Position numbers and translations under genes: made by a program
Notes under the pieces: model-generated
Told to the model about the DNA's origin: nothing
Seen by the model: the letters and a program-made list of their open reading frames with translations, nothing else
Database searches by the model: none
Part shown: in pieces, positions 24,437 through 49,046 of the stretch
Layout of the letters: each line of letters starts with the position of its first letter
Position numbering within the stretch: position 1 is the stretch's first letter
NCBI RefSeq assembly: GCF_003143775.1
Contig: NZ_QFRJ01000017.1
Span: 1 to 55,180 of the forward strand
Direction of reading: 5' to 3'
DNA length: 55,180 nucleotides
From: Brumimicrobium oceani
GTDB lineage: Bacteria > Bacteroidota > Bacteroidia > Flavobacteriales_D > Crocinitomicaceae

Positions 24437-26746
24437 ATGAAAAAAATTATATTATTTATCGCCACTATTTTCACCGCGAATTTTGCTATTTCGCAATGTG
24501 ACATAGATATTAATACTGCCACAACTTCTATTGATTGTGGTAATACCTTTGTTTTAACCGCGGTTGGAACATCTCAAATATCATTATTAGATGAGAATTT
24601 TAATAATAGTACACTGGCATCAGGGTGGATTCCAAATCAGCCCGTTATGTTTAGTAATCCATGTGGTGCTCCGCCAGACGGATCACCTTCAGCATGGTTC
24701 GGTAATTCTCAGCCACATCCTCGGTTTTTAGAAACAACTGATTACGATGTGACCTGTGGTGGTGATATTTGTTTTATGATGAAGTATGCAACTCAAGGTG
24801 GCTCTGGGTCTTGCGAAGGACCCGAACTTACAAGTGAAGGTGTTGATTTGCAATATTCACTGAATTCTGGTGCCACATGGGTGAGTATAGCTTATCATCC
24901 ACCACTCAATGGTGGTTATGATGCTTATCAAACAACATGGAACCAATATTGTTATGCAATTCCTGCAGCTGCTCAAACTACTTCTACTAGATTTAGATGG
25001 ATTCAAGGTGGAAGCCATGGTGCCAATAATGACCATTGGGGTATTGATGATGTTCTGATATCTGCCTTGAATTGTGCTGTGTATTATTACGACTGGGCTG
25101 TTGATGGTACTCAGAATACTGCAGATACTGTTATTACGCAATCAGTAAACTCAAAGACCTATAATGTAATTTACACTAACGGTATCGATGATACATGTTC
25201 TGCTTCGATAACAATTGATGCCTCTCTTTCTCCTGACTTTGATTATTTCGCTCCTTGTGAAGGTGAACAGGTTACTTTTACTAACATCTCCACAGGTCCT
25301 TTTACGAACGCGAAGTGGATTTTCTTGAATGGAACAGACACAATTCAAGCTCCTAGTGCAACTTACACCTTCCCTCCAGGAAGTAATATGGATGTTGAAT
25401 TGTATATTGAGGATTCTGTAGGTTCGTGTACGGGAACCGTTACGAAAACGGTAGTTGAAACACCAAAATTACAATTGTCTGTTGATAATCAGGTGGATGT
25501 TACATGTAATGAAGGAGAGGATGGTATTGTGACAGTAGGTGTTTCTGAAGGAACTTCGCCTTATACTTATAGTTGGTCAAATTCAGTTTCTACAGGGGCA
25601 ACTGCCGATGATTTAGCATTTGGTCCAACGACGGTTACAGTAGTAGATTCTAATGGTTGTACAATTTCTGAAACAGTGAATATCGACCAACCAGAACCTT
25701 TAGTTATATCGAATGTATCGCCTGACACAGTTATTTGTATTGATGATCCTGTTGATCTATTTGCCGTGGGTTCAGGTGGAAGTACTGCCTATATTTATGA
25801 GTGGAGTGAGAACGGACAGGTGGTTGCCAACGGAAGTAATGTTACGGTTACGCCTACATCGGCATCTACCGAATATATGCTCGTGTTGAGTGAACAGTGT
25901 GGCTCTCCCCAGGATACAGCTTATGTTACTGTAAATTATCCAGATGAATTGATTCCTGCATTAACTCCAGATATCACAGGTGGTTGTTATCCTGTGGCAA
26001 TCGATTTTACAAACAGTACCAACACAAACGAGGTGATTGATTACACCGTATGGGATTATACCGATGGAAATATTGATACAATTGCTGGATCAGGAAATGC
26101 TGTTCATGAGTTTGATTTAGGAGTTTGGGGTGTAAATATGGAAATTGTTTCAGAAAGAGGGTGTAGGTATTTCCGATCGTATACCGACCTAATTGAAGGT
26201 TATCCTTATCCAGAGGCGAACTTTTATGTAAATCCGAACCCTGTTTCAATCTTTGAATCAACAGTGACGGCTTACGGAGAATCTAGTGGAGACATTGTTT
26301 CTTACCAATGGTTTGCTGAGGAAGCAGACCCTGACTATTCTTCCATTCAAAACCCAACACTTGAATACCCTTCAGAAATCAAAAACTATCCTTTAATACT
26401 TGTTGTTGAAAATGGTTATGGTTGTACGGATACCATTCAAAAGTTGGTTAGGGTAGAGAATGTGGTTACTATCTTTACTGCAAACACATTTACTCCTGAC
26501 GGTGATGGCTTAAATGATACTTGGAAGCCAAACTTATTAGGAATTGATACACAAAATTTCAGACTGGAAGTCTTTAACCGATGGGGAGAAACAGTTTTTG
26601 AATCTCAAGACCCTGATGGAGAGTGGGATGGGACATATGGAGGTAAGCTTGTAAAGGCAGGAACTTACATGTGGGTTATCCGTGTAAATGATTTTGAAAA
26701 TGATAATAAACATGAGTTTAATGGAAGTGTAAACGTGCTGAGATAA
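24437..26746 (+). CDS. Type IX-secreted multidomain surface protein (reelin-like, SprB repeat, CHU_C)
   Basis: Secreted protein of 769 aa. The signal peptide ends near residue 20. Residues about 45-210 look like a reelin-type jelly-roll subdomain, with SCEGPELTSEGVDLQYSLN, a GATWVSI turn, STRFRWIQGG and a WGIDDVLI end. PKD-like and SprB-repeat segments follow (about 275-420; TSPYTYSWSNS and GCTISETVNIDQPEP are typical), then further PKD-like units. The last 90 residues match the gliding-motility-associated CHU_C sorting domain: NTFTPDGDGLNDTW, EVFNRWGETVFES and AGTYMWVIRV. CHU_C domains direct export by the type IX system. The function is probably adhesion. It is followed by a strong terminator. 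Confidence 0.9.
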   Translation: MKKIILFIATIFTANFAISQCDIDINTATTSIDCGNTFVLTAVGTSQISLLDENFNNSTLASGWIPNQPVMFSNPCGAPPDGSPSAWFGNSQPHPRFLETTDYDVTCGGDICFMMKYATQGGSGSCEGPELTSEGVDLQYSLNSGATWVSIAYHPPLNGGYDAYQTTWNQYCYAIPAAAQTTSTRFRWIQGGSHGANNDHWGIDDVLISALNCAVYYYDWAVDGTQNTADTVITQSVNSKTYNVIYTNGIDDTCSASITIDASLSPDFDYFAPCEGEQVTFTNISTGPFTNAKWIFLNGTDTIQAPSATYTFPPGSNMDVELYIEDSVGSCTGTVTKTVVETPKLQLSVDNQVDVTCNEGEDGIVTVGVSEGTSPYTYSWSNSVSTGATADDLAFGPTTVTVVDSNGCTISETVNIDQPEPLVISNVSPDTVICIDDPVDLFAVGSGGSTAYIYEWSENGQVVANGSNVTVTPTSASTEYMLVLSEQCGSPQDTAYVTVNYPDELIPALTPDITGGCYPVAIDFTNSTNTNEVIDYTVWDYTDGNIDTIAGSGNAVHEFDLGVWGVNMEIVSERGCRYFRSYTDLIEGYPYPEANFYVNPNPVSIFESTVTAYGESSGDIVSYQWFAEEADPDYSSIQNPTLEYPSEIKNYPLILVVENGYGCTDTIQKLVRVENVVTIFTANTFTPDGDGLNDTWKPNLLGIDTQNFRLEVFNRWGETVFESQDPDGEWDGTYGGKLVKAGTYMWVIRVNDFENDNKHEFNGSVNVLR

Positions 26747-33852: not shown

Positions 33853-36800
33853 TTAAAATGTTTTGGCTGTTTTGGTTATTTCTGTTGCACCAAGTTTGGT
33901 TAAAACAGCTTGTAGTCGATCTACCACATTTTGGTTGTTGTCAACATCTACAGCGTAGAAGTTGACCAGTAATTGATTTTTATTGGTTTGCATTTCCTTA
34001 ATTACTGGTGTGTTTAAAATAACCTCCATTAAGTCAGAATTTAAGTCTTCATTATTAATGGCCACTTCGAGATGGATTAAGTTACTTTCTGGATTTTCAA
34101 TTGCATTTTTACGATATGGAGTGCTTTCATTTATAATGGAGTAAGCATTATTGTACACCGAAACTTTTTCGAAATCTGCCATAAATTGTGATGAGATTAT
34201 ATCTCCATCAAATAAGAAACTTTGAATTTTTTGAGTTTTAGAATCATAATAAAACAGTTCGCCTTCCTCATTGTATCGGTTCAGCTCTTGAATTGGGAAT
34301 TCCGGATAGCTTTTTGTTGAAACAAGTAAGTTCTTGGTATTGCTGCTGTTTATGAATGCTTCCTGAGTTTCATTTGCAATGGACGTGACATTGTTATTGG
34401 CCATTTCATTCCTTCTTGGTTTAGGCATATTTGATTGTAATACTACGTCTCCTTGAGCTTTTAAAATAGCGTTTGCTTCTGAGGCTGTTATGCGTAATCC
34501 TTTATAATAGGCAACGATGTAAGCGTCTGATATTCCTTTTTCGACCACTTGATTTCTTTTAGGAATTGCTGCATCATAAGAATCAAATACACCAGAAGAA
34601 TAACGAATGAGTCCTGTAGGTAATCTCTTCGTAATTAATGGAGAAACATTACTTAACTGTTCCGACGTAGCTGGAGTATTATAAACACCAACTTGAACTG
34701 TGTAAAATAATCCCGCTTTGTTTTCAACCACATCAGCCTCCGCAGATCCAATGGTTTTGTTGTATGCGAATTCATCTAATTCATTCGATTTGGTGATCGT
34801 TGTAAGGGTTCTTGCTGTTGAGTCTGAATCGTTGTCTGTTTCAGCAATCAAGTCTTCATCATCATTGATCTCTGAAATACATGCCCCTGAGCTGGCTAAC
34901 TCTACGGCGCGATATACAGGTATTCTTTCACCATCACAATAAGCAACAATAAATGCATCTGAATATCCTAAAGCCCTAATTTTGTCTCGGGCATCTCCTG
35001 CAATTTCTCTGTCACCGAATAAACCAACGACATATTTTATCCAGCCTGAGCCAATATTATCACCCGAAATAGGGGAGAATTGATTGAAAGTCTCATTTGG
35101 AACAGGGTTTCTAAATGCTCCAATTTGAACTCGGTAAACTAAGCCAGACATTTGATCATTTACTTCACGGATAATCGGAATAGGATTTTCATCTGAATAA
35201 ATTGCTTTGGCTTTTTCACCAATGACCAAGCCTGTTTTCACTAAAGCCAAGCTAGAGGTTCTTATCGGCATGGCTTTCAGAGGTGCTACATCTCGTGCAA
35301 TCATGTTTTCTGTTTTGTAGCGTAGTTCTGCATCATTGGGCAAAGACATGGCAACGTCGTTTTGTTTGTTCTGCACATTTTCCCTCAATCGGGCTACATC
35401 ATTTTTAGTTTTACTAATTGCAGCAAGTTGTGTTTTGATTGCTTCTTTCTTCTCGTCAGTTAATCTTCCATTGGTTTTAACCTCGTCATAGATCTCTTTC
35501 AGCTCTGTTTGTTCGTCATTTAACTGCGCCTCTTTTATTCTTAATTCATATTGTGCTTGGGTTAAACGATTATTGTTTCTCAGTTGATCGATATATTCTT
35601 TCGATTGAGCAATTTCAACTTCTTCCTTGTAGGTCAAAGTGTTTTTTATGGCCTCCTTTGAAATTCCTTTATTGGCATCGGCCCTTTGTTGTTCTTCTAT
35701 TTTGTCTAGTGCTTTAGAATTCTCGTATAGTCTATTTTCGAGGCCTGTTTTAATAAGGTTCAATTGATTTATGTTGAATTCTATAGCGTTTTTATTTTGT
35801 CTATTGGCATTAATGACCATTGCATTTAACTCATTAATTTGCTCATTGAGGTTCACTAATTTTAGATTGAGCTGGTTTTGCTCTTTCATTATTTCATTCG
35901 CCGTAAGTGCTACCGTTTTAGTTTCTATATTTTCTAAGTTTAACTCCTCAACGGCTTGTGAAATATAGTTGTCAATTTGTTTTTGAGTTCTGGTATCTTT
36001 AATCAACTTTAGTGTCTTCTCTTGCTCATTAAATGCCTCAGAAAATAAGTTGTATAGTTCCACAGCAGATTTTTGCTCTCCAGACTTTTGAAGTATCTGT
36101 TCAATCTTTACAACACTTTGTTGGGCACTTAAAGATGAAATTTCGTCTGGTGATTTTTGAAGTAATTGATCAGATTTTCGAACTAAATCGGGATAGTTGG
36201 TAATTAATGAGTTTTGCAGTGCAATACTTAGCTCAGAAGCAATCTCATTTTCAATTTTATTCATTTTAGAACTGGTTTTTTTGTTTTCTGCTAAAGCTGG
36301 ATTAGCTTTTATTGCTAGTTCTAATTCTTCTTTTTCCTTGAATAATTTATTGATTTTTGATTGTGATTTATCCGTTAAAGAATTTTCAATCTTTCTTGGA
36401 ATATCTTCTTTTGAAATTGTACTGATGGATAAGACATCTTCGAAACTACTTTCAGTATTGTTGCTAGAAGCAACCAACTCATGACTTTCTAAATCATCGA
36501 TTTCTTGAACTATCTGGTTTTCTATAGTATTTATTGTTTTGAGTTTTTGTGCCACAATAGGAGTAGGGTTGATTTCTTCCTCTCTTAAAGTTTCGGATTT
36601 CACATCTCCTACATCAATTAAAACCTTGTATTTGCGTTTGATTAAATCTGAATTGGTTTTTGTGCCTTCTTGAATTCCTTGCTCAATTTGAGCAACTTCA
36701 CTTAAGTAATTCGGGTCAATAAGCTCCAATACACGCTCCGGATTGGAAACAGTAGCCATATCCTCAATAGTGATCTCATCATTTGCTTGCGTTTCCTCAG

Positions 36801-39800
36801 TTGATTCTTCATTGGTTTCTGCAACTAATTCATTTTCATTTGTGCTTTCGTTTTCTTCAGTTGCTTCCGCTTCGTTGTTCGCTAATTCATTGTTAACGCT
36901 TTCTACACTTGCGTTGTTTTCATTCGTCGCTTCTTTGGAGTTTTGAGTGCTCTCAGTGTTTTCACTGTTTTCCGCGATTTCAGAATTGTTTTCTGTCTCG
37001 GCATTTGCTTGACTTTCCTCAGCTGCTCCTTCATTGGTTTCTGCAACTAATTCATTCTCATTCGTGCTTTCGTTTTCTTCAGTTGCTTCGGCTTCGTTGT
37101 TCGCTAATTCATTGTTAACGCTTTCTATATTTGCGTTGTTTTCATTCGTCGCTTCTTCTGAATTTTGAGCATTCTCAGTGTTTTCAGCGATTTCAGAATT
37201 GTTTTCTGTCTCGGCATTTGCTTGACTTTCCTCAGCTGTTTCTCCGGTGGTTTCTGCAACTAATTCATTTTCATCTGTGCTTTCGTTTTCCTCAGTTGCC
37301 TCCGTCTCGTTGCTCGCTAATTCATTGTTCGCGCTTTCTATATTTGCGTTGTTTTCATTCATCGCTTCTTCTGAATTTTGAGCATTCTCAGTGTTTTCAG
37401 CGATTTCAGAATTGTTTTCTGTCTCGGCATTTGCTTGACTTTCCTCAGCTGTTTCTCCGGTGGTTTCTGCAACTAATTCATTTTCATTTGTGCTTTCGTT
37501 TTCCTCAGTTGCCTCCGTCTCGTTGTTCGCTAATTCATTGTTTGCGCTTTCTATATTTGCGTTGTTTTCATTCGTCGCTTCTTCTGAATTTTGAGCATTC
37601 TCAGTGTTTTCAGCGATTTCAGAATTGTTTTCTGTCTCGGCATTTGCTTGACTTTCCTCAGCTGTTTCTCCGGTGGTTTCTGCAACTAATTCATTTTCAT
37701 TTGTGCTTTCGTTTTCCTCAGTTGCCTCCGTCTCGTTGTTCGCTAATTCATTGTTTGCGCTTTCTATATTTGCGTTGTTTTCATTCATCGCTTCTTCTGA
37801 GTTTTGAGTGTTCTCTGTGTTCTCAGTGTTTTCAGCGATTTCAGAATTGTTTTCTGTCTCGGCATTTGCTTGACTTTCCTCAGTTGCTTCTTCGTTGATT
37901 TCAGCAACTAATTCATTCTCATTCGTGCTTTCGTTTTCTTCAGTTGCCTCCGCTTCATTGTTCGCTAATTCATTGTTAACGCTTTCTATATTTGCGTTGT
38001 TTTCATTCATCGCTTCTTCTGAGTTTTGAGTGTTCTTTGTGTTCTCAGTGTTTTCCGCGATTTCAGAATTGTTTTCTGTCTCGGCATTTGCTTGACTTTC
38101 CTCAGTTGCTTCTTCGTTGATTTCAGCAACTAATTCATTCTCATTCGTGCTTTCGTTTTCTTCTGTTGCCTCCGCTTCATTGTTCGCTAATTCATTGTTA
38201 ACGCTTTCTATATTTGCGTTGTTTTCATTCATCGCTTCTTCTGAGTTTTGAGTGTTCTCACTGTTCTCAGTGTTTTCCGCGATTTCAGAATTACTTTCTG
38301 TCTCGGCATTTGCTGGACTTTCCTCAGCTGCTTCTTCGTTGGTTTCTGCAACTAATTCATTCTCATTCGTGCTTTCGTTTTCCTCAGTTGCCTCCGTCTC
38401 GTTGTTCGCTAATTCATTTTCAGTATTGGTTTCGATTTCTGAGTTCTCATTCGTCTTGTTATTTTCAGCCAATAACTCCTCGTCTTCTTTAATGGCATTT
38501 TCTATTGTTTCAATTTCGCCATAAATTCGATTTTCGAGATTATTTAGCAGATCCACCTTCATTGCCAAATCTAGATCCTCTGGAGTTTGGGATAGGAGAG
38601 TAGTTGTCTTTTCTTTAGCCTCGTGAACTTTTAAAGCTGCCTGATATCTTCTTTTAATTAGCGCATTTCGGTCAGCGTTTCCTTGCTCTATATCTTTTTG
38701 GATTTGTGCAATGTCTTCTGTATAATCAGAGTCGATTTCTAATAAGGCTTTATTGATTGAATTGTCTGCTTCTTCCAATACAATATTGTTCAGTTGTTCG
38801 TTGCTTTCTAATTCTATAGCCTCGCTTACTTCCTTATTTTCAGCGATTAATTCTGCCTGAGTGCTGTCCGTTTCACTTGATTTTTCTTCGGTCTCATTAG
38901 CTGTGTTTTCTTCAGTGCTCTCTGTTGTTTCGCTAGCTAGTGCCTCTGCTATCATTTCATTTTCTGAAGCAATTTCTCTTTCCAGTTTTTCAACATCACT
39001 GATCAAGGATTGCTCTATGGAGCTCAATGCTTCAAGTGCTGATGTTAGCGCTTCATTTTGAGCTCCATCAACTTGTTTATCATTGACTTCTACTATTGCA
39101 TCTTTCACTTTAATAATTGCTTGGTTTTTCCTTGCAATTAGGGCCGTTTTATCAGTTTCACCTGAATTTACTGCTGCTTCTAACTGTGCGATATCTCGTA
39201 CATAATCGCTATCAATTTCAGCTAATGTTGGCAGAGAAACAGCCTTTGGAGTGCTAGGATTTTCGCTTTCTTCACCTTTGATTTCTTCAGTCTTCTCAGG
39301 ATCAGCTTCTTCATTAGCGGATGACATGTTTTTAGTTTCATTTTCTGCCAACTGCTCGCTTTCTTCATTCTCTGTTGTAGCAGCAATTATACCACTTTCA
39401 GCATCAATTTCCGTTTGTAGCACTGCCACCTCCGAAAGTAGTTTCTCCTCTAGTTTATTCAAGCTCAAATTAGTTCTCGACAGATTGATGTCTCCTGGGT
39501 TTTCAGCGGATTGCTCGGCAACAATTACTTGTGCTTCTTGAATTTTTGATATGGCTTGTGTTTTTCTTTCAACAAGCTGATTCTTGCTGCTTGAGCCATT
39601 TTCAATGTCCTTTTCTATTCGCGCTATATCATCTGCATATTCTGGATCTAAAACAAATAATGTAGGAATAACCGTAATTTGTTCTTCTGCTTGGTCATTA
39701 GATTCTTCCTTTTTATCTGTTTCTTCAACTGTATTTAAATCTGCAGATTCTTCCTGATTCTCAGCAATAATTTCGTTTTCTGAATTGTTCTCAGTTTCCT

Positions 39801-42174
39801 GCTCTGTCTCTGCGATATCCTTGCTTTCTGGCAGGGCATCAGCATTGTTTTCTATTTCATGAATATCTGCTAAAAGATTTTCAAATTCCTCTGCTAAGTC
39901 ATGCTCGGCAATCATGTCCTCCTTAATCGGACTTCTGCTAATTTGTGCTAAAGTTTGTTTCTGATCAGCAATTTTACTTTTCTCTGCAATTACTTCTTCC
40001 GTATATTTTATCTCATTTTCAAGTCCTTCTAGTCTTATTTCAGCCTTACTTAATTCGAAACTAATGTCTTCTTTTTCTCTTTTGGAAGCAGCGGCATATG
40101 CTCTTTCAAGTTTTGCAAGTTCAGTTTGTGTAGCTTGTTTGGCTCTGTTTAATGAATCTTTTGTGGAAATTAGATTATCTCTTAGACGTAACTCGTCATT
40201 GATTACGGCTAAATACTCAAAATATGCATTTGTTTTTGTCCTTACCAAAAGCTCTTCGCTTACAAATGTTGGGTATTTTGAAACAGCGTCAATAAGTCCC
40301 TTTGTATTGCTGGTTTTAAGGTCTTTTATGCTGTTATTTAGGTTTTTAGCGGTAGCCAATAGACTTTCTTTTTCGGCATAATCTTTTTCTAAGTGAGATA
40401 AAATGATTTGCGCATTAAGCATGTCTTGCTGAATGGCTTTAGATTTTTCAATTTCACGCGCAGATAGAGTTCTCCACCTTTCTTTTTGAGGATCTTCAGG
40501 ATTTTCTTTGCTCAGTTGCATAAGGGAGTCAGCTGATTTTACTGCCTTTTTAATTGCATCATTCCCATTTTGTACAATGTATCTCGATTTTAAGATCAAT
40601 GAATCGGTGCTGGTTTGTCTTAAGTATAAATCTTTAAATTTAGTTTGAATTAAATCTCTAATCTCTACATTGGTGTACTGTGCTAATCCTACTTGATCAA
40701 AAACTTTTTTCTGTTCTTGAATTTTATCTAAAGAATCTAAATTAAATAAATCCCTGTTAATATTCATTTTTGCTTTGGCTTCAATGGCTTCTGCTAATAT
40801 TTCGTCATAATTTTCAACTTTTTCGTTGAATAAATTATTGAAGACAACGAGATTTTCACCATCCTTTTCAATTTCTGTAATGGTTTGCTTTAATGGACGG
40901 AAGGAATTAACTTTAGGAATAGAAATAGTTTCCTTAAACTTTTTGTCGTTTTTGTCCAGTTTCACAACAAATTCATATTTTCCTTTTTTAGGTAATCGAA
41001 TGTTGTATTCTCCTTTGTTGTTGGAGGTAAATTTGCCTACTAAATCTCCTGTAGCATCATTCACTTCTATAGAGATTGTTTTATGAGTAGGGTTAATTTC
41101 TGAATTAAAATTTCCAGCTAAGACTACCATTTCCATTGGTAATCTTTCCAGTCTTACCTTATAAACATGAACCTTATTTGTTTCACTTTCCCTTTGGGAT
41201 GCGAAATAAGCATGTTTATCCAAGGAATCAACGATATATAGGAAGTCATTGTCCGGTGAAGAAATTGAAATATTCATGTTTTCTGGAATACCAAAAGTAT
41301 TGGTTGATTGATCGTATTCACTTCTGAAAACGTCGTAGCCTCCCATGCTTTTATGTCCTTCAGAAGAGAAATACAAGTATTTTCCGTTAGGGTGCATGTA
41401 AGGATAGTCTTCGTTATATGGTGTGTTCACATCACCAAGCACTGGACTTTCTTTCGACCATTCACCATTTGTTGTTCTGTATCTGAAATAAATATCCTTG
41501 TTTTCGGATCCAGATCCATAGCTAGAATAGTAAATATAATCTGAGTTTATAGGGAAGTGAATCAGGGGAGTGTGGTTGTTTTTTTTGTCTTGTTTACTTT
41601 GAAACTCCTCTGCAACAATTAGATTACCACCAATGTCTTTTAAATCATAAATCCTGAAGAAACTTTTTAAATCAATTTGGGTTTTCTCGAGAACTATAGT
41701 TTCCGTAATGTCGCTGAACTGTGTTTTTCCATTTCTACACATTTCAATTTGCCTGTCTACTTGCAGTTCCTCAAGTGCTCTTGCACCAGCTTTTTGTTTA
41801 TATAATTCGTAGTTTTTTATGGCTTTATTGAATCTGTAAGTGAGGTGATAGGCTTTCCCTAGATAATAATAAGCTTCTGCATCAACTTCACTGTCTTTTT
41901 GTATAGAATAATTTAAATACCTAAATGCTTCGGTGTTTTTATCTGCATTATAAAGAAGGCAGGTTCCATATTTATAGTTATAATTTGGATTCCTCGGCTC
42001 CAAGGACAAAAGCCTCAAGAAAAGAGGTGTGGCTTCTAGGTATTCACCTTTTCTAAAAAGTGCTTGTGCTTGTTTATCAATATCTTCCTTGGACTCTTGC
42101 GCGGTTACGAATAATCCACCAAAGATAAGTGTAAGCAATAAAAGGAAGTGTTTTAATCCCATTTGTAGTGACAT
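33853..42174 (-). CDS. Giant envelope protein: TPR, PD40 propeller, CRD, acidic repeats, two SPOR-like domains
   Basis: 2773 aa, exported (signal peptide ending near Ala25). Order: TPRs (about 32-130); PD40 propeller blades (about 205-335; DIYFRYRTTNGEWS and GGYDVFRSEYD are typical); carboxypeptidase-regulatory-like beta-sandwich (about 348-440); long coiled coils (about 470-780); four copies of a helical module of roughly 95 residues at about 837, 981, 1141 and 1814; an acidic Glu/Asn array (1252 to about 1797); more coiled coil; two SPOR-like domains near 2343-2430 and 2487-2575; a globular end. TPR-PD40-CRD is the architecture of PorE, the type IX accessory protein, but the OmpA-like end is missing and SPOR-like domains, which bind peptidoglycan, occupy the C-terminal region. 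Last gene of its operon. The role is inferred as a cell-wall-tethered outer-membrane scaffold. Confidence 0.88.
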   Translation of the reverse strand: MSLQMGLKHFLLLLTLIFGGLFVTAQESKEDIDKQAQALFRKGEYLEATPLFLRLLSLEPRNPNYNYKYGTCLLYNADKNTEAFRYLNYSIQKDSEVDAEAYYYLGKAYHLTYRFNKAIKNYELYKQKAGARALEELQVDRQIEMCRNGKTQFSDITETIVLEKTQIDLKSFFRIYDLKDIGGNLIVAEEFQSKQDKKNNHTPLIHFPINSDYIYYSSYGSGSENKDIYFRYRTTNGEWSKESPVLGDVNTPYNEDYPYMHPNGKYLYFSSEGHKSMGGYDVFRSEYDQSTNTFGIPENMNISISSPDNDFLYIVDSLDKHAYFASQRESETNKVHVYKVRLERLPMEMVVLAGNFNSEINPTHKTISIEVNDATGDLVGKFTSNNKGEYNIRLPKKGKYEFVVKLDKNDKKFKETISIPKVNSFRPLKQTITEIEKDGENLVVFNNLFNEKVENYDEILAEAIEAKAKMNINRDLFNLDSLDKIQEQKKVFDQVGLAQYTNVEIRDLIQTKFKDLYLRQTSTDSLILKSRYIVQNGNDAIKKAVKSADSLMQLSKENPEDPQKERWRTLSAREIEKSKAIQQDMLNAQIILSHLEKDYAEKESLLATAKNLNNSIKDLKTSNTKGLIDAVSKYPTFVSEELLVRTKTNAYFEYLAVINDELRLRDNLISTKDSLNRAKQATQTELAKLERAYAAASKREKEDISFELSKAEIRLEGLENEIKYTEEVIAEKSKIADQKQTLAQISRSPIKEDMIAEHDLAEEFENLLADIHEIENNADALPESKDIAETEQETENNSENEIIAENQEESADLNTVEETDKKEESNDQAEEQITVIPTLFVLDPEYADDIARIEKDIENGSSSKNQLVERKTQAISKIQEAQVIVAEQSAENPGDINLSRTNLSLNKLEEKLLSEVAVLQTEIDAESGIIAATTENEESEQLAENETKNMSSANEEADPEKTEEIKGEESENPSTPKAVSLPTLAEIDSDYVRDIAQLEAAVNSGETDKTALIARKNQAIIKVKDAIVEVNDKQVDGAQNEALTSALEALSSIEQSLISDVEKLEREIASENEMIAEALASETTESTEENTANETEEKSSETDSTQAELIAENKEVSEAIELESNEQLNNIVLEEADNSINKALLEIDSDYTEDIAQIQKDIEQGNADRNALIKRRYQAALKVHEAKEKTTTLLSQTPEDLDLAMKVDLLNNLENRIYGEIETIENAIKEDEELLAENNKTNENSEIETNTENELANNETEATEENESTNENELVAETNEEAAEESPANAETESNSEIAENTENSENTQNSEEAMNENNANIESVNNELANNEAEATEENESTNENELVAEINEEATEESQANAETENNSEIAENTENTKNTQNSEEAMNENNANIESVNNELANNEAEATEENESTNENELVAEINEEATEESQANAETENNSEIAENTENTENTQNSEEAMNENNANIESANNELANNETEATEENESTNENELVAETTGETAEESQANAETENNSEIAENTENAQNSEEATNENNANIESANNELANNETEATEENESTNENELVAETTGETAEESQANAETENNSEIAENTENAQNSEEAMNENNANIESANNELASNETEATEENESTDENELVAETTGETAEESQANAETENNSEIAENTENAQNSEEATNENNANIESVNNELANNEAEATEENESTNENELVAETNEGAAEESQANAETENNSEIAENSENTESTQNSKEATNENNASVESVNNELANNEAEATEENESTNENELVAETNEESTEETQANDEITIEDMATVSNPERVLELIDPNYLSEVAQIEQGIQEGTKTNSDLIKRKYKVLIDVGDVKSETLREEEINPTPIVAQKLKTINTIENQIVQEIDDLESHELVASSNNTESSFEDVLSISTISKEDIPRKIENSLTDKSQSKINKLFKEKEELELAIKANPALAENKKTSSKMNKIENEIASELSIALQNSLITNYPDLVRKSDQLLQKSPDEISSLSAQQSVVKIEQILQKSGEQKSAVELYNLFSEAFNEQEKTLKLIKDTRTQKQIDNYISQAVEELNLENIETKTVALTANEIMKEQNQLNLKLVNLNEQINELNAMVINANRQNKNAIEFNINQLNLIKTGLENRLYENSKALDKIEEQQRADANKGISKEAIKNTLTYKEEVEIAQSKEYIDQLRNNNRLTQAQYELRIKEAQLNDEQTELKEIYDEVKTNGRLTDEKKEAIKTQLAAISKTKNDVARLRENVQNKQNDVAMSLPNDAELRYKTENMIARDVAPLKAMPIRTSSLALVKTGLVIGEKAKAIYSDENPIPIIREVNDQMSGLVYRVQIGAFRNPVPNETFNQFSPISGDNIGSGWIKYVVGLFGDREIAGDARDKIRALGYSDAFIVAYCDGERIPVYRAVELASSGACISEINDDEDLIAETDNDSDSTARTLTTITKSNELDEFAYNKTIGSAEADVVENKAGLFYTVQVGVYNTPATSEQLSNVSPLITKRLPTGLIRYSSGVFDSYDAAIPKRNQVVEKGISDAYIVAYYKGLRITASEANAILKAQGDVVLQSNMPKPRRNEMANNNVTSIANETQEAFINSSNTKNLLVSTKSYPEFPIQELNRYNEEGELFYYDSKTQKIQSFLFDGDIISSQFMADFEKVSVYNNAYSIINESTPYRKNAIENPESNLIHLEVAINNEDLNSDLMEVILNTPVIKEMQTNKNQLLVNFYAVDVDNNQNVVDRLQAVLTKLGATEITKTAKTF
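36783..38421 (-). repeat. Tandem array of 213/222-bp coding repeats (7 full plus 1 partial)
   Basis: It encodes residues 1252-1760 as seven units of 74, 74, 74, 71, 71, 71 and 74 aa, then a partial eighth. Each unit reads NNELANNEAEATEENESTNE, continues through ELVAE and AETENNSEIAEN, and ends NENNANIESV, with few changes. The 71-aa units lack one TEN triplet. Near-identical DNA copies point to recent expansion by recombination or slippage. The opposite strand gives long spurious Cys/Phe/Leu-rich frames. Confidence 0.97.
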
Positions 42175-42212: not shown

Positions 42213-42833
42213 CTATTTCTTAAAAAGGTTCATTTTATTCTCATTTCCTTGAATAAGGCGTTTAATATTCTGGTGGTGTAGAATAATTACAGCAGAAGAG
42301 AGAACAATACTAAAAACTGTAAGCGAAGTATTTTCATTTTTGAAAGCAAAAACAACAAGCAGTGGGAAAGCCAGAGATGATATTATTGCGCCTAAAGAAA
42401 CATAGTTAAAAATGATGAATACTGCAAGAAATAAAACAACACAGATTAATGCTGCTGGAGGGTGAATTCCTAGAATTACTCCCAATGAAGTGGCTACACC
42501 CTTTCCTCCATTAAAACTGGCAAAAACTGGAAATATATGGCCTAAAACAACCAAGATACCCGACACTATTTTAAGGTGGATTAAATGGTCGTTGTTCCAT
42601 AAATAATCATTTATTAAAAAAGGCAGAATTACAGCAAGAATACCTTTTAAGACATCTACTGAGAGTACTAAAATACCTGCATTTTTACCTAGAACCCTAA
42701 AAGTATTTGTTGCTCCAGCATTTTTACTTCCATGTTCTCTAATGTCTAAGTCATACTTCACCTTTCCCACCCAAACGGCTGTGGGTATAGAACCTAATAA
42801 ATATGCTATTAAACCGAATATTAAAAAATCCAT
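42213..42833 (-). CDS. plsY: Acyl-phosphate:glycerol-3-phosphate acyltransferase
   Basis: Inner-membrane enzyme of 206 aa that transfers an acyl group from acyl-phosphate to glycerol-3-phosphate, making lysophosphatidate, the first step of phospholipid synthesis. The three PlsY motifs are visible: SIPTA near 15-19, HGSKNAGATN at about 34-43, and GHIFPVFASFNGGKGVAT at about 97-114. Five membrane helices, usual length. It lies 10 bases after the 1534-aa protein gene and 38 bases before the giant protein gene. Confidence 0.96.
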   Translation of the reverse strand: MDFLIFGLIAYLLGSIPTAVWVGKVKYDLDIREHGSKNAGATNTFRVLGKNAGILVLSVDVLKGILAVILPFLINDYLWNNDHLIHLKIVSGILVVLGHIFPVFASFNGGKGVATSLGVILGIHPPAALICVVLFLAVFIIFNYVSLGAIISSLAFPLLVVFAFKNENTSLTVFSIVLSSAVIILHHQNIKRLIQGNENKMNLFKK

Positions 42834-42843
42834 TTTTAATTTA

Positions 42844-45800
42844 TTAATTAAATACCCTCAAGAATTGACTTTTGTAAGCCGAGTTCTGCGTTATATCATA
42901 AATGAACTTTCTTGATTTTTTCTTGTCAGCTTTTAATTCAGAGACTTCAGTGTTAAAGTCTTTGTCATCTGTCAATATATTCATAACTCCATCTTTTCTG
43001 TAATCGTAATCAATAAAGTACTCAAACCCTCCAGGAACATTCAAGAAAAGTCCAAGTCTGTCTCCCATGTTGGACCTTTGCTCTGCAAAAATACGCGTTG
43101 AAACATATTTCATCACAGGTTGATTAAATATATTTACAATTGCTGATTGTGTTGATGTTGTAAGCAATCCTTTTTGGTTGTCACCAGGTTTTGCATAAGA
43201 CGTCAGCTCAATGCCTGTAATAACAATAGCGTCCTCTAATTCTTTCGGAACATTTTTAAATTCCTTCTTTAGTGTAAAGTCAGATTTAATTTTATCCGCT
43301 GATTTACGGTTTACCCACTCTACAAGTGCTTGTTCCAAAGTACTATTGTTGAAGTCTGTGTCTTTTAAACCAGGCACTTCAATTATTTTAGCACCAATGT
43401 CTCTAAACGCTTTTGTTTCAACAGGTGCTCTAATGGCCATGGTAAGCTTTAGGTCTGTTTGTTCGCTTGCTTCATCATAGTTTACTTCTCCAATTGAAGT
43501 AACGTCAAGTGTTCCGAAATCCATACCTAAATTAATATCCCCGTCTCCATTGAGTGAGCAAGTTTCGGTGTGCAATGAAATATAGTTTCCTTTTTCATTT
43601 CTATTCACAAGCTTCTCTTTGTTCGAAATTTGATATTCCTTGGTTGAACCATTATACTGCAACAGCCCACTAGCAGAGAAAACTTCAGGATCCTCTTCAC
43701 CCAAAACCTGACTCAAGAAAGTTGGGTACAATCTTACTTCCTCTTTGTTTGTGGAGTTTCTCCATCGAATACCAACGGTGATTTTGTTTCCTTCTAAATC
43801 CACCATGTCTTCGCCCACTGGTATTTGAATTTTTTCTGGATCAATTGCCGTCTCAAATGCCATCCAACTTCTTTCAAAATTCTTACAATCATGATTAACT
43901 TTCGTTGCTCCTTTAAACAATAAATAAGGGTCTGCAGCTTTTAACCTTACATCTCCATAGAAGCTAAATTGTTCGCTCAATGCGAGTATGTTTTCTTGAT
44001 CTACTGCACCTACTGCAACAGTTTGGAAAGAAGTGTCTAATCTAATTTCTGAAAGATGAATTAATTGTTTTTCTTCTCCTTCTCTTCCATATTCATAGTC
44101 TCCAATTGCTGTGTACGCTCTTCTTGCTGTAACTTCAGCCTCCACGTTAACCATAGAGTGATACTTGGTAATGAAATTGGCTACAATTTTAGCATTTTCA
44201 AATTTATCAAGTTTGGCATTTTTCCGAACTACAACAACAGCGCTGTCTGGGAAAATTCTGGCATCTGCAATTTCTAAAAACTCTGTGTCATAAGCATAAA
44301 TTGTTCTCTCTTTCAAGCTGAACTTCGCTTTTGGAGACAAAAATTGTAGAGAATCTTGTTTGGGGTTTGTAGAGAAAAAGTTTGGGCCATCCAAGTCCAT
44401 ACCACTTTCTATGGCTAAATTGTCTTGCTCCTTTTTCTCTAAAGTCATCTCGTCTTGATCCATCTGCCAAGTAAATTGATCAATTTTACAGATGTACTGG
44501 TTTACAGGGAATTCTACAATCGAAATTCCTTTATTAGGTCTAAATATTCCTACCCTCTCTTTAAAATCAAGCTTTCCATTCACATTGTCCGTCTTAAAGG
44601 CGAGTGCGTCCTCAGTTAAATCTCCTTCTTTTTTATACTTATTGTTTAAGAGGAAAGATGCCGTGTCGGTTTCAGCTACCCACCTGGTAAAATCGAAATG
44701 TCTTGACCTAAGCTTGGCAGATGATAAGTCTAAACCTCCTCTTCCTGTCATTCCTTGGTGGTTTAAAACTGTAGAACCTTCTAGTTTAGCTTCTCCATTG
44801 AAAAACGCTATATCTTCTTTGTTTGATCTGGCTTTTAGCTGTTTTTCCCTCGGTAAAAAGGTGATAAAAGCGTCTGGACCATCTGCATCTGGATATTCAA
44901 CTCCCGCTTCTTGAGGTCTATTTATGAAGGTAGCCACTCCAATAGCTGAATCTGGAAGGAATGTAAATAATGATTTTGATGTGGATGAGGAATTGATAAA
45001 GTTAATGGTTCCTCCTCCTTGAAGTCCATTGTTAGAAAGTAAAATCTTGTTTTCATAGATGGCGTCCGTTCCATAAAACTCATAACCTTCCGATGGCACA
45101 TCTTGAGAAAAACCAAGGGAATAGTCTGCCATCACCTTAAGTTCATCTCGCATTTTTGGGAAAATACCGGCAGAAGTCAGCTCTCCTGGGAATCTAAGGT
45201 TTCTCTCATTGAATGTAAGTAAACTATCCAGTGTGAAGGGATCAACCTCAAAGTAAAAACGTTCTTTGTTGTAGGCTCCACGGTGTAATTGTTTTTGATC
45301 GTAATAGACACGTGTTTTTTCTTTAGAAACTAAAATGGGATATTCATCAAAGCCCTCGTTTAGTCCAGATCTGTTGCTTGTTGCGTCTACAATGATTTCT
45401 CCTTGTAGTCCGTTCAATACGGATTGGAGAGGAATAGCCCTTTTACCGTCTTCAGCTCTTAAAGGATTTGCGTTAAAATAGGCGACTTTTGAGTCATAAA
45501 CGTTAAACTTATTGCTTTCATAAACGTAGTCTCCTTTTTCAATTTTCACTTCCCATTTACCACTATTGATCCAGCCAGAAAATACAATATTCCTATTTTT
45601 CTTAATCACTACTTGGTTGCTGTCTGGAAAAATAGTTGTTCTTTTAATATCGGCAATTTTAATGAAATCTACGGCCTGAATATCCATATCCAAAGAGGAC
45701 AAATCCATTTTACCATATTGGTTTATTTGAGAACGCTCTAAGTTTCTTTTGCGTACTTTTTCTAAGTAGTCTTGATCTGTATTACCTTGTTCACTACGAA

Positions 45801-47448
45801 TGGGAGAAAGGTTGGAGGTGAATGAAATATTGTCGTAATCACTGGCCCTAGATTTCGACTTTACAAAATGCTCGGTTTTTGGATTCACAACTACCGTCTC
45901 TCGATCGGTATCATAACTAATAAAACCTAAGGCAGAAAGTTCTAGTAATTTTGGTTTTGCTTGTTCAATTGTTCGGTTTAATGCCGTAGCAGCTGTACCT
46001 TCATCCATATTAAACTTGTCGTACTTGTAGGCATATTTATAGAGGGCAACCAAAGGATGAAGTGCTTCAACTCCCTGAAGTCTTTGGTATAATCTTTCAT
46101 CATAATAACTGAAGGATTCAAATCTAGCATTTCGCTGTTGCTCGGATGTATTGATGTCGTACCCTAAAACAAGATCATTGGAGTTTTTATTCCAGATTAA
46201 CTCGTCTACATACATATTCATTTTGTGGAAACTGTTAATAAATGGAGCCTGAGAAATGGCGGCACTTCCCCTTGTCATTTTTAGCGATTCTGTTTCCTGA
46301 TTGTACGAAACATTAAGTCCTGTATGAGTTATAGAATCTCTAAGTCCAATAAACATGGTCATTTTTGCCATGTCAGTTCTTACACTTTTGCTGCTGACCC
46401 TAACTTGGTCTGATTGTGTGATGATGAATGGTTTACTTTTTCGGTAGTAAATTAACTCAGCTTGCATTTCATCATTTCCAACACCAACAAATTGGTCTCC
46501 ATTTAAAGAAAAACCTCCTTTGTAATCAACATCTTCAATGATGTTTTTTATTTCGAAATTGGCTTGATAGGAGCTAAATTGTGGGTAAACCATATCACGG
46601 TTTTCTCTGTAATTACCTTTTACGGCTCTGTCAATAATTCTTCCCGGAACGGGTCTAGATATGTAAGGCGTCTTTAATGAAACACTGTCGACCGTAAAAT
46701 TTGTTGATCGAAAAGAAACAGAGTAATTATTCAAAGTAGCTACGGTTTCATTTTTTGGTAAAAGTGCTTTTTCCCAAGTAAATTGACCTCCTTGCCCTTC
46801 CCATTTATTACTGGATAAATCTGCAATTCCCGAAGTGTTCTCTATTTTTACCGAGTCTGTAAAAGAAACGTCCTTCCAATTAGATGCTCTGTTGATCGTT
46901 TTGCAAACGATGGTTGTGTTTTCAACCCTAAGTTGAGGTGTTTTATCATTGATAAACTCAAACTCATTACCTGATAAGTACCATGTAAAATTAGGATCTT
47001 CGGCGATAATATTTTGGTATAAAAAAGAACGGGAGACAGCTAAAAACTCCTCTAATCTTCTTGTGTTTCTGTTTTTAATTAAGTCGTCTACAATGTTGTG
47101 CCAATTATCGAATTGAATACCTGTTTTTCCTCGTTTTACAAGTGAGTAAACCGAAACGACATAGTTGTGAAGGTGAGGGAAAGGTGTGATTTGCTTTTCG
47201 TTGAGTTGGTCTACGGTAGTTTGCATTTGTTGAAAACGTTCCTCAGGAAAAAAGTTTCCTCCCAGTAACATTGGACTAAGCTCATTGTCGATAAAGTCCT
47301 TGATTTCTTTTGCTCGTCCGGCTTCCATTGTACGGGAATAATCAGATATAAATTTTTCACGTTCTTCATTGGGCTTGTTTTTCTGACCAAAAGAATTGTG
47401 TACAGAAAGCAATAAAATAATGAATAAAAATAGAGCGGACGTTTTCAT
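42844..47448 (-). CDS. Very large exported protein of unknown function (1534 aa)
   Basis: A signal peptide (hydrophobic 5-19, cut near Gly21/Gln22) is followed by a long, mainly beta-rich body with no transmembrane helix and almost no low complexity. I recognise no named domain. One motif occurs twice: (I/L)-(K/E)-IAD-x(2-4)-(R/T)-IFPDS-x2-VV-x2-KN near residues 597-622 and 1057-1080, each starting a set of beta-strands. Repeated strand-turn patterns about reading out or summing fields (ATFINRPQEAGVEYPD, AFFNGEAKLEGSTVLN) recall beta-helix or OstA/AsmA-like envelope proteins, a loose resemblance only. The early region (about 25-160) is helical. It sits 2 bases after prmA and 10 bases before plsY, so it is firmly in the operon. 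Probably periplasmic or outer-membrane associated. Confidence 0.8.
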   Translation of the reverse strand: MKTSALFLFIILLLSVHNSFGQKNKPNEEREKFISDYSRTMEAGRAKEIKDFIDNELSPMLLGGNFFPEERFQQMQTTVDQLNEKQITPFPHLHNYVVSVYSLVKRGKTGIQFDNWHNIVDDLIKNRNTRRLEEFLAVSRSFLYQNIIAEDPNFTWYLSGNEFEFINDKTPQLRVENTTIVCKTINRASNWKDVSFTDSVKIENTSGIADLSSNKWEGQGGQFTWEKALLPKNETVATLNNYSVSFRSTNFTVDSVSLKTPYISRPVPGRIIDRAVKGNYRENRDMVYPQFSSYQANFEIKNIIEDVDYKGGFSLNGDQFVGVGNDEMQAELIYYRKSKPFIITQSDQVRVSSKSVRTDMAKMTMFIGLRDSITHTGLNVSYNQETESLKMTRGSAAISQAPFINSFHKMNMYVDELIWNKNSNDLVLGYDINTSEQQRNARFESFSYYDERLYQRLQGVEALHPLVALYKYAYKYDKFNMDEGTAATALNRTIEQAKPKLLELSALGFISYDTDRETVVVNPKTEHFVKSKSRASDYDNISFTSNLSPIRSEQGNTDQDYLEKVRKRNLERSQINQYGKMDLSSLDMDIQAVDFIKIADIKRTTIFPDSNQVVIKKNRNIVFSGWINSGKWEVKIEKGDYVYESNKFNVYDSKVAYFNANPLRAEDGKRAIPLQSVLNGLQGEIIVDATSNRSGLNEGFDEYPILVSKEKTRVYYDQKQLHRGAYNKERFYFEVDPFTLDSLLTFNERNLRFPGELTSAGIFPKMRDELKVMADYSLGFSQDVPSEGYEFYGTDAIYENKILLSNNGLQGGGTINFINSSSTSKSLFTFLPDSAIGVATFINRPQEAGVEYPDADGPDAFITFLPREKQLKARSNKEDIAFFNGEAKLEGSTVLNHQGMTGRGGLDLSSAKLRSRHFDFTRWVAETDTASFLLNNKYKKEGDLTEDALAFKTDNVNGKLDFKERVGIFRPNKGISIVEFPVNQYICKIDQFTWQMDQDEMTLEKKEQDNLAIESGMDLDGPNFFSTNPKQDSLQFLSPKAKFSLKERTIYAYDTEFLEIADARIFPDSAVVVVRKNAKLDKFENAKIVANFITKYHSMVNVEAEVTARRAYTAIGDYEYGREGEEKQLIHLSEIRLDTSFQTVAVGAVDQENILALSEQFSFYGDVRLKAADPYLLFKGATKVNHDCKNFERSWMAFETAIDPEKIQIPVGEDMVDLEGNKITVGIRWRNSTNKEEVRLYPTFLSQVLGEEDPEVFSASGLLQYNGSTKEYQISNKEKLVNRNEKGNYISLHTETCSLNGDGDINLGMDFGTLDVTSIGEVNYDEASEQTDLKLTMAIRAPVETKAFRDIGAKIIEVPGLKDTDFNNSTLEQALVEWVNRKSADKIKSDFTLKKEFKNVPKELEDAIVITGIELTSYAKPGDNQKGLLTTSTQSAIVNIFNQPVMKYVSTRIFAEQRSNMGDRLGLFLNVPGGFEYFIDYDYRKDGVMNILTDDKDFNTEVSELKADKKKSRKFIYDITQNSAYKSQFLRVFN

Positions 47449-47450
47449 AA

Positions 47451-48290
47451 TTATATGGTTTTGGTGAGCTTAATTACAGCCCAGGTTTCCTTTTGATAGG
47501 ATTCTAAGGTATCAAAGTTGTACAGTTTAGCATGAGCGGAAAGCTCCGAAATATCAGTTTCAAAGAATCCACTTAAGAAGAGTAAACCATTTTTCTTTGT
47601 AAGTTTTGCGTAAGCTTCCATGTGTCGCTTCAAAACATTCTTGTTGATGTTTGCAATGACAATGTCATACTTTTCATTTGGAACGAGATCAATATCACCT
47701 TTAATGATTTCGAAGTTCTTTACAGCATTGCGCTCACAATTTTCGATGGCATTTTCAACAGCTCCCTCTTCGATGTCTGTCCCAAAAACGGTTTCGGCAC
47801 CAAGCTTGGAAGCCAGAATACCTAAAACCCCAGTACCAGTGCCCACATCAAGGACCTTTTTTTCTTTAAAATCGACAGTTAACAGGTGTTTACTTAAAAG
47901 ATAGGTTGTTTGATGGTGACCCGTTCCGAAAGACATTTGTGGTTGAATTTCAATCGCCAACTCAAACGATGAGTCTGCTTTGTGAAAAGGGGCACGAATC
48001 AGTATTTTTTTATCTATGTTTACTGGTTCATAATCAGACTCCCAAACAGCATTCCAGTTTTGAGCGGGAATATGTTCTTTCTCAAATTTAATGGCTACTT
48101 TTTTTTGCCTATATTCCTCGATGAGAGCATTAAATTGATCCTCATTATAATTTTCTTCAGATACATAAGCCTGCAATGATTTATTTTCTTCGGTAAAACT
48201 ATCAAACCCAATAACTGCAAGTTCTTGGGTTAGGATTTCGGTCCAAGGCTTTATTGGTGCTATATTTAAGGTAATTTGAAAATAATTCAT
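47451..48290 (-). CDS. prmA: Ribosomal protein L11 methyltransferase
   Basis: SAM-dependent methyltransferase of 279 aa that methylates ribosomal protein L11. An N-terminal substrate-binding domain (about 1-100) precedes the Rossmann domain. Motif I is LDVGTGTGVLGI near 142-153, followed by the acidic GTDIEEGAVENA segment, and motif IV is IANINKNVL near 210-218. The MSFGTGHHQTT segment near 119-129 is diagnostic of PrmA. It lies 3 bases from tpiA and 2 bases from the next gene. Confidence 0.95.
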   Translation of the reverse strand: MNYFQITLNIAPIKPWTEILTQELAVIGFDSFTEENKSLQAYVSEENYNEDQFNALIEEYRQKKVAIKFEKEHIPAQNWNAVWESDYEPVNIDKKILIRAPFHKADSSFELAIEIQPQMSFGTGHHQTTYLLSKHLLTVDFKEKKVLDVGTGTGVLGILASKLGAETVFGTDIEEGAVENAIENCERNAVKNFEIIKGDIDLVPNEKYDIVIANINKNVLKRHMEAYAKLTKKNGLLFLSGFFETDISELSAHAKLYNFDTLESYQKETWAVIKLTKTI

Positions 48291-48293
48291 AGA

Positions 48294-49046
48294 TCAATTA
48301 TAGGTTGCTATTATTTTGAGAAAGTCTTCAGATTTTAAAGATGCTCCTCCGATGAGTCCACCATCAATATCTGATTGATTGAGTAATTCGGTTGCGTTTG
48401 AAGGTTTGCAACTTCCACCATATAATATGGAGGTATTCTGAGCAATTTCTTGTGTATAGGCGTGCTCTATGGCTTCACGTATACTTTTATGCATTTCGTT
48501 TGCCTGTTCCGGACTAGCAGTTTTGCCTGTTCCAATGGCCCAGATAGGCTCGTATGCAATCACAATCTTAGCGAATTCTTTTGAAGGCAAGTGGAATAGC
48601 GAGTTTTTCAATTGCTTGATTACAGTTTGCTTATATTGTCCAGATTCTCTTTCCTCAAGGGTTTCTCCACAACAAAAGAATACTTTTAGGTCTTCCTCCA
48701 ATGCTGCATCGACTTTTTCTTTCAACAAAATATCAGATTCATTGAACAGTTGACGACGTTCAGAGTGGCCAATTAAAACAGCTTTTGTGCCAATTCCGGA
48801 GAGCTGAGACATGCTTACTTCTCCAGTAAAGGCACCGTTTTTTGCTGGATAGCCGTTTTGCGATCCAACGTTTACTTTTTGATCACTTTCCAATAAAGTG
48901 CTTAAATATATGGAAGGAACAAAGTGGTACACTTCGCAATTAAATTCAGATGTTTCTAGGGCATCATTGATTTCAGAGTGAAGTGATTGAGCCTCCTCAA
49001 GAGACAAATTCATTTTCCAGTTTCCAGCTACTATTTTCTTTCTCAT
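48294..49046 (-). CDS. tpiA: Triosephosphate isomerase
   Basis: Interconverts dihydroxyacetone phosphate and glyceraldehyde 3-phosphate in glycolysis. TIM barrel of 250 aa with all catalytic residues: Lys11 (NWKMN), His94 (GHSERR) and Glu166 (AYEPIWAIGTG). The flexible loop 6 follows Glu166, and the phosphate-binding YGGSCKPSN and GGLIGGASL loops are near the C-terminus. It lies 3 bases after the BT_3928 gene and 3 bases before prmA. Confidence 0.97.
   Translation of the reverse strand: MRKKIVAGNWKMNLSLEEAQSLHSEINDALETSEFNCEVYHFVPSIYLSTLLESDQKVNVGSQNGYPAKNGAFTGEVSMSQLSGIGTKAVLIGHSERRQLFNESDILLKEKVDAALEEDLKVFFCCGETLEERESGQYKQTVIKQLKNSLFHLPSKEFAKIVIAYEPIWAIGTGKTASPEQANEMHKSIREAIEHAYTQEIAQNTSILYGGSCKPSNATELLNQSDIDGGLIGGASLKSEDFLKIIATYN

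Follow-up and report, generated by a model that had tools for sequence, protein, structure and literature searches.

A giant protein with a PorE-like head and a SPOR-domain end: a candidate wall tether co-inherited with a large secreted-type partner

The window, by which we mean the whole 55,180-nucleotide stretch of Brumimicrobium oceani DNA analyzed here, is an entire contig (C9). On its minus strand, a single open reading frame (33853–42174) encodes a protein of 2773 residues, in which a TPR–PD40–CRD head is joined by a long tether to SPOR domains. With moderate confidence, based on sequence comparison and structure models, we propose that this giant tethers an assembly on the outer-membrane side, probably including the operon partner c1, to denuded (septal) peptidoglycan. 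This explanation is supported because the SPOR pair keeps its contact residues, the head is PorE-like and c1 is co-inherited. The giant is a widespread variant built from known parts, not a new principle. No prior description of its architecture was found in the literature searched (SPOR with PD40, Flavobacteri and Bacteroidetes; mainly open-access, preprints excluded). In the same kind of literature, a SPOR domain was linked with type IX secretion only in another system.

Results

Architecture of the head

The giant starts with a signal peptide (residues 1–25, 42100–42174, minus strand, as are all features of the giant), which ends in LFVTAQ and has no lipobox Cys. It is followed by a TPR region at about residues 30–130 (41785–42087), an apparently shortened PD40 propeller region at about 160–345 (41140–41697) and a CRD-like region at about 346–440 (40855–41139). 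Signal peptides and lipoboxes were judged by eye and pattern, and no membrane segment or lipid anchor was seen by eye past the signal peptide. Among the 98 uncut giants with a full head, a loose lipobox pattern occurred in two, and in both the ordinary signal-peptide end lay after the Cys. By its sequence, the giant is a secreted-type protein that is probably exported to the periplasm.

The order of signal peptide, TPR, PD40 and CRD, which the first-pass annotation had recognized as that of PorE, was borne out, with weak support for the CRD. Pfam searches of the whole protein found TPR_2 at residues 35–62 (E 2.7e-4, 21.3 bits, under the curated 27), PD40 at 249–283 (24.3 bits against a cut-off of 20.9) and, weakly, CarboxypepD_reg, representing the CRD, at 368–408 (E 0.073). 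The TPR assignment also draws on a set of 32 heads; at E 1e-3, PD40 was detected in 25 of these, TPR_2 in 18 and CarboxypepD_reg in two, making the CRD the weakest element of the series. An NCBIfam scan of the giant yielded nothing beyond a weak TPR-type match.

Comparison with PorE

An excerpt of the published description (PMC7192894) gives PorE as an outer-membrane lipoprotein with TPR at residues 25–149, a propeller at 167–435, a CRD at 441–527 and OmpA at 534–668. The giant resembles PorE (PG1058 of Porphyromonas gingivalis) in the N-terminal succession of TPR, PD40-type propeller and CRD, and in ending with a domain of a type that binds peptidoglycan. Unlike PorE, it has no lipobox, an apparently shorter propeller region, a tether of roughly 1900 residues, SPOR in place of OmpA and a conserved operon with c1, and it coexists with a separate PorE-like protein.

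That protein was found by searching the same genome. G000:C23, of 673 residues, combines four PD40 stretches with an OmpA end and has, by eye, a lipobox-like LLIFTSC; its best PDB match was 6TOP, the OmpA domain of P. gingivalis PorE. With the own genome included, clear matches to C23 (E 1e-90 or better) were present in 53 of 59 genomes, and matches at E 1e-60 in 56; three of these 56 (G029, G040 and G058) had matches at the paralogue level only. The earlier suggestion that this lineage had swapped the wall anchor of PorE was rejected in view of the coexisting C23. Three more proteins of the genome combine PD40 with an OmpA end (C8, C32 and C35), TPR being weak in C8 and C32. The best PDB matches of C8 were 5WTP and 5WTL, with 6TOP in third and fourth place. 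Since C8 also reaches 6TOP, the assignment of C23 to PorE rests on architecture, lipobox and best match jointly.

The profile of the giant head matched C23 at 2.6e-38 across residues 329–519, which comprise the last blades and the CRD, so that the CRD-like region of the giant is aligned with that of C23. In this alignment, C23 shows three extra, weaker blade matches upstream. The propeller region of the giant extends over about 185 residues with one Pfam PD40 stretch, as against four in C23. When the genome was searched with the giant head, C23 was the best non-self match (2.2e-35). BLAST of the head returned C32 (6e-20) and C23 (2e-19), and also C8, C7, C12 and C35, indicating a likeness to a broad TPR–PD40 group. 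With no lipobox, no OmpA and an apparently short propeller region, the giant is, we conclude, PorE-like in its head, but it is not PorE.

One member of this group, C7 (L193:3467-5902, G000:C7; 811 residues), has TPR, PD40, a CRD-like region and a C-terminal SPOR domain (738–806). The stretch ahead of this domain is OmpA-like but degenerate (E 0.0076, below the cut-off). Compared with the giant, C7 is short, has one SPOR domain and no long tether, and it looks nearer to a literal exchange of an OmpA for a SPOR anchor.

SPOR domains and predicted wall binding

The two SPOR-like domains reported earlier at about residues 2343 and 2487 were recovered by the iterated profile, the Pfam set and AlphaFold2, and were placed at residues 2344–2418 (34921–35145) and 2488–2563 (34486–34713). 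A third SPOR-like fold (2699–2771, 33862–34080) was seen in the AlphaFold2 model but went undetected in the profile search of the window giant. In the whole protein, Pfam SPOR scored 23.3 bits at residues 2375–2410, over the cut-off of 21. Pfam SPOR also matched every one of the 28 members in the dual-SPOR alignment, the 238-residue stretch of the window giant at E 8.6e-9. OmpA (PF00691) was absent from the giant and from the contig; all 16 matches of the genome lie elsewhere.

AlphaFold2 modeling of residues 2331–2773 resulted in a mean pLDDT of 84 and a pTM of 0.44, a value at which the domain arrangement is not fixed. The model contains SPOR-type β-α-β-β-α-β units at about 2344–2413, 2489–2557 and 2699–2771, the first helix of the second unit being missed by DSSP. 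Foldseek returned 1443 matches for the C-terminus. No structure named SPOR was among the best 50; ferredoxin-like and ACT-type folds made up most of the matches listed, all of which fell short of E 1e-3. By sequence, the 443-residue C-terminus had no match in the PDB, and the sequence profile had a single one, the CwlC-type SPOR domain 1x60 (E 0.0092).

According to an excerpt of PMC6895207, Q270 and R309 of RlpA touch denuded glycan, the SPOR ligand that is enriched at septa. We mapped these residues onto the giants by motif alignment, by eye. Among 130 distinct largest ORFs, 125 had at least two SPOR domains, and the other five had none at the threshold used. At the position equivalent to Q270, Gln was kept by 123 of the 125 first domains, by all 125 second domains and by 23 of 73 third-and-later domains. 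The R309 position held Arg or Lys in 114/125, 125/125 and 5/73, respectively. The R311 position was mostly non-basic: Arg occupied it in seven of 28 first domains and in none of 28 second domains. The conservation of the contact Gln and Arg/Lys in both detected SPOR domains makes peptidoglycan binding credible. We predict that domains 1 and 2 are binding-competent with part of the RlpA basic patch, and that the third-and-later domains are mostly degenerate.

SPOR proteins such as RlpA, FtsN, DamX and CwlC usually carry one SPOR domain each. The giant shares with them the SPOR fold, and it has the Gln and Arg/Lys with which RlpA touches denuded glycan. It differs in having two SPOR domains with contact residues, mostly degenerate extra copies and a TPR–PD40–CRD head.

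The tether

The very long tether noted in the first pass was confirmed, with about 1900 residues between the head and the SPOR domains of the window giant. It contains four copies of a module of 82 residues that looks, by eye, like a helical hairpin; a module search placed the copies at residues 842–924 (39403–39651), 987–1069 (38968–39216), 1147–1229 (38488–38736) and 1819–1897 (36484–36720). Between the third and fourth copies lies a tandem array of 7.5 copies of a 222-bp unit (36780–38418), encoding acidic, Asn/Glu-rich units of 74 residues almost without Lys and Arg. The module was detected in 77 of 116 giants (duplicates between genome sets included) with 1 to 15 copies each, and 39 had no detected copy. 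In sister species, the gene of the giant holds arrays of other units, 180 bp × 6.0 (L034:9858-10934) and 372 bp × 6.2 (L035:7469-9760). The unlike units suggest independent recent expansions of the tether. The 98 uncut giants with a full head range from 1653 to 3621 residues (median 2238).

Distribution across genomes

The dual-SPOR end had matches in 53 of 59 genomes at E 1e-3, the own genome included, some of them to short proteins only. We surveyed 41 loci at the order level, namely the window and 40 picked for giant-type matches. The C-terminal match was present in all 41 and the head in 36; the five headless loci were all truncated by a contig end. In L057, the head is split across two ORFs. 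After removal of duplicates through the last 200 residues, head and SPOR domains were on one ORF in 102 of 125 distinct proteins. Of the 23 headless ones, 22 were cut by a contig end, and L117 was uncut.

The wider sample comprised 217 genomes, the own one included, of the class that we take to be Bacteroidia in the GTDB sense (the NCBI class of Brumimicrobium is Flavobacteriia). A dual-SPOR match of some kind was present in 177 of these and the giant type in at least 89. The giant-type set was judged by hand among the matches listed, and several members are ORFs well below 1400 residues (358 to about 1260) that were admitted on match strength. Twenty giants from outside the order of the window, hand-chosen from this set, were fetched; in all 20 the head was matched at E 1e-95 or better and two SPOR domains or more were present, and 18 had three. 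At the stricter E 1e-30, a phylum sample of unspecified class make-up gave matches in 3 of 148 genomes, all three belonging to the same order as the window. The architecture had first been taken as a trait of this lineage; its recurrence in the 20 extra-order giants and in many families across the class led us to reject a lineage-specific oddity.

Several smaller or neighboring forms were also observed. L202:1815-3947 and L203:1830-3953, in same-genus genomes, encode mini giants of about 710 residues, each having two SPOR domains and a head that is matched only weakly. In L066 (4166-4624) and L070 (5508-5948), an ORF of 146–152 residues matching the TPR of the head lies directly upstream of the giant. 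L199, L200, L201 and L204 encode proteins of about 700–770 residues with an N-terminus resembling an outer-membrane barrel (by eye) and 2–3 C-terminal SPOR domains; each of these genes adjoins a gene of 463–507 codons whose product also ends in SPOR. L100 (CP034120.1) is titled Glaciecola amylolytica, and its giant is near the Fluviicola type; the record or label seems wrong. Several MAG titles (Kuenenia, Actinomyces) also look wrong.

The operon partner c1

An annotation scan and the locus survey gave the gene order tpiA (48294–49046), prmA (47451–48290), c1 (42844–47448), plsY (42213–42833; glycerol-3-phosphate acyltransferase) and giant, all on the minus strand. In the window, plsY is separated from c1 by 10 bp and from the giant by 38 bp. 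Over the 41 loci, the neighbors were c1 in 31, prmA in 27, tpiA in 20, plsY in 19 and an M48-type protease in nine. These counts are lower bounds, as many loci end before the outer genes; of the ten loci missing c1, the giant was cut by a contig end in six. All three M48-type genes scanned were Peptidase_M48. No cell-division gene was recognized among the scanned neighbors.

The c1 product is a secreted-type protein of 1534 residues with a signal peptide (by eye) and 97 invariant columns in 27 sequences. It is mostly beta by prediction and matched no family in Pfam or NCBIfam. By sequence, it matched nothing in the PDB, and its profile returned three unconvincing rows (E 0.23–0.39).

In the class sample, c1 was present in 181 of 217 genomes. 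Among the matches listed, it occurred in all 89 giant-type genomes, and the giant type occurred in none of the 36 c1-negative genomes; G030, which is c1-negative and has a 743-residue dual-SPOR ORF, was left out of the giant count. Fisher's test of the association gave p 6e-10, uncorrected for relatedness; the genomes are related, so the counts are not independent. In the 88 giant-type genomes with coordinates, the two genes were at most 12 kb apart in 38, on the same contig at least 24 kb apart in four and on different contigs in 46. A further 92 genomes have c1 without the giant type (among the matches listed), so c1 does not need the giant. On these sequence comparisons, the two appear strongly co-inherited, and we consider the pair the most valuable lead of this work.

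Relation to type IX secretion

As the first-pass annotation had stated, a type IX cargo is encoded in the window: a T9SS type B sorting-domain protein (TIGR04131) at 24437–26746 on the plus strand. This gene and that of the giant are about 7 kb apart and on opposite strands, and in a genome having type IX secretion such proximity is weak evidence. The giant could be a PorE paralogue with an accessory role in type IX secretion, its head joining the machine on the PorE/PorKN side and tying it, besides PorE, to the septal or polar wall. The detectable homology of the head to C23 and this cargo gene speak for such a role, as does the marker SprA in 88 of the 89 giant-type genomes (among the matches listed; G109 is without). 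We nevertheless consider it unlikely. SprA is near-universal in the class (211 of 217 genomes), and its co-occurrence was therefore dropped as evidence either way. With the giant type in 89 genomes and 123 SprA-bearing genomes without it (among the matches listed), the giant is no general part of type IX secretion; a role confined to some lineages is conceivable. A PorE-like protein is present separately, the head likeness is shared by C32, C8, C7, C12 and C35, and no recognized type IX gene is among the conserved neighbors (prmA, tpiA, plsY and c1). The type IX link that had been drawn for the giant was thus not upheld.

Tol-Pal-like and delivery readings

Tol-Pal combines a propeller (TolB) with a wall-binding function (the OmpA domain of Pal) between the outer membrane and the septal wall, and PD40 repeats are also the propeller type of TolB. 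The giant likewise unites a propeller with a predicted wall-binding function. It differs in having neither an OmpA domain nor a lipid anchor, and TolB_N was not found: it was detected in 0 of 59 genomes (own included), while three of 14 controls were positive, a Bacteroides among them. This absence leaves room for a Tol-Pal-like role of the giant. In such a module, the propeller head and septal glycan binding would pull in the outer membrane when cells divide, in a lineage that has no TolB. The affinity of SPOR for septum-enriched glycan (excerpt of PMC6895207) is in line with this reading. We hold it to be improbable, somewhat more so than the type IX role, since the giant shows no lipid anchor or membrane segment past the signal peptide by eye, and 13 OmpA-domain matches over the cut-off exist in the genome, some of them possibly Pal-like. 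TolB_N is also missing from genomes without a dual-SPOR match, and hence its absence does not show that the giant replaces TolB.

A third reading starts from c1. AlphaFold2 modeled residues 60–1255 of c1 as mostly beta (pLDDT 85, pTM 0.58), and Foldseek matched the model to LptD (E 6e-6, probability 0.97) and to LptA/LptC-type structures (probability 0.95–1.00, TM by target about 0.5). If c1 formed a long Lpt-like beta bridge for glycolipid or lipoprotein delivery, the giant could be its wall anchor, and the adjoining M48 protease of some families could provide quality control; the M48-type gene in nine loci and the adjacency of plsY in 19 would fit. The LptD match, however, has a TM of about 0.12–0.16 and an rmsd over 40 Å, the LptA/LptC matches have E values of 0.01–0.4, and teneurins, with low probability, took the first three places in the Foldseek list. 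Moreover, c1 has no Pfam family or convincing PDB sequence match, and a separate OstA_2 protein exists. The model therefore suggests a weak Lpt-like resemblance only, and we find delivery as doubtful as the Tol-Pal-like module.

Discussion

We favor the reading in which the giant tethers an outer-membrane-side assembly to the wall. The giant would be exported to the periplasm, where its SPOR end would bind peptide-stripped glycan, enriched at the division septum. The head would dock on an envelope assembly to which the co-inherited c1 most likely belongs, and the tether would span the gap and hold this assembly close to the wall being split or remodeled. The giant would act alongside PorE, not replace it. 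Septal placement is plausible by analogy, from SPOR biochemistry. A role in coordinating the outer-membrane or envelope assembly with division, following a Tol-Pal-like logic, would be a further step, prompted by the lack of TolB_N matches in the 59 genomes.

A bolder version of the tether proposal, which we regard as unlikely, is that an undescribed machine spanning the envelope has the giant and c1 as its two large parts, with c1 as an Lpt-like conduit or bridge of about 1500 residues and the giant as its leash to division-site peptidoglycan. If true, outer-membrane delivery would be steered to where the wall is split.

If our reading of the head is right, heads of the PorE-like kind serve as a general module of the envelope, and a head by itself is not enough to call a protein PorE. 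If the tether proposal is right, much of a major bacterial class possesses a giant wall tether that has no name yet, and c1 is its unnamed 1500-residue partner, distributed even more widely than the giant. The giant–c1 pair would then offer a handle on how the outer membrane is coupled to the wall at division where no TolB was found.
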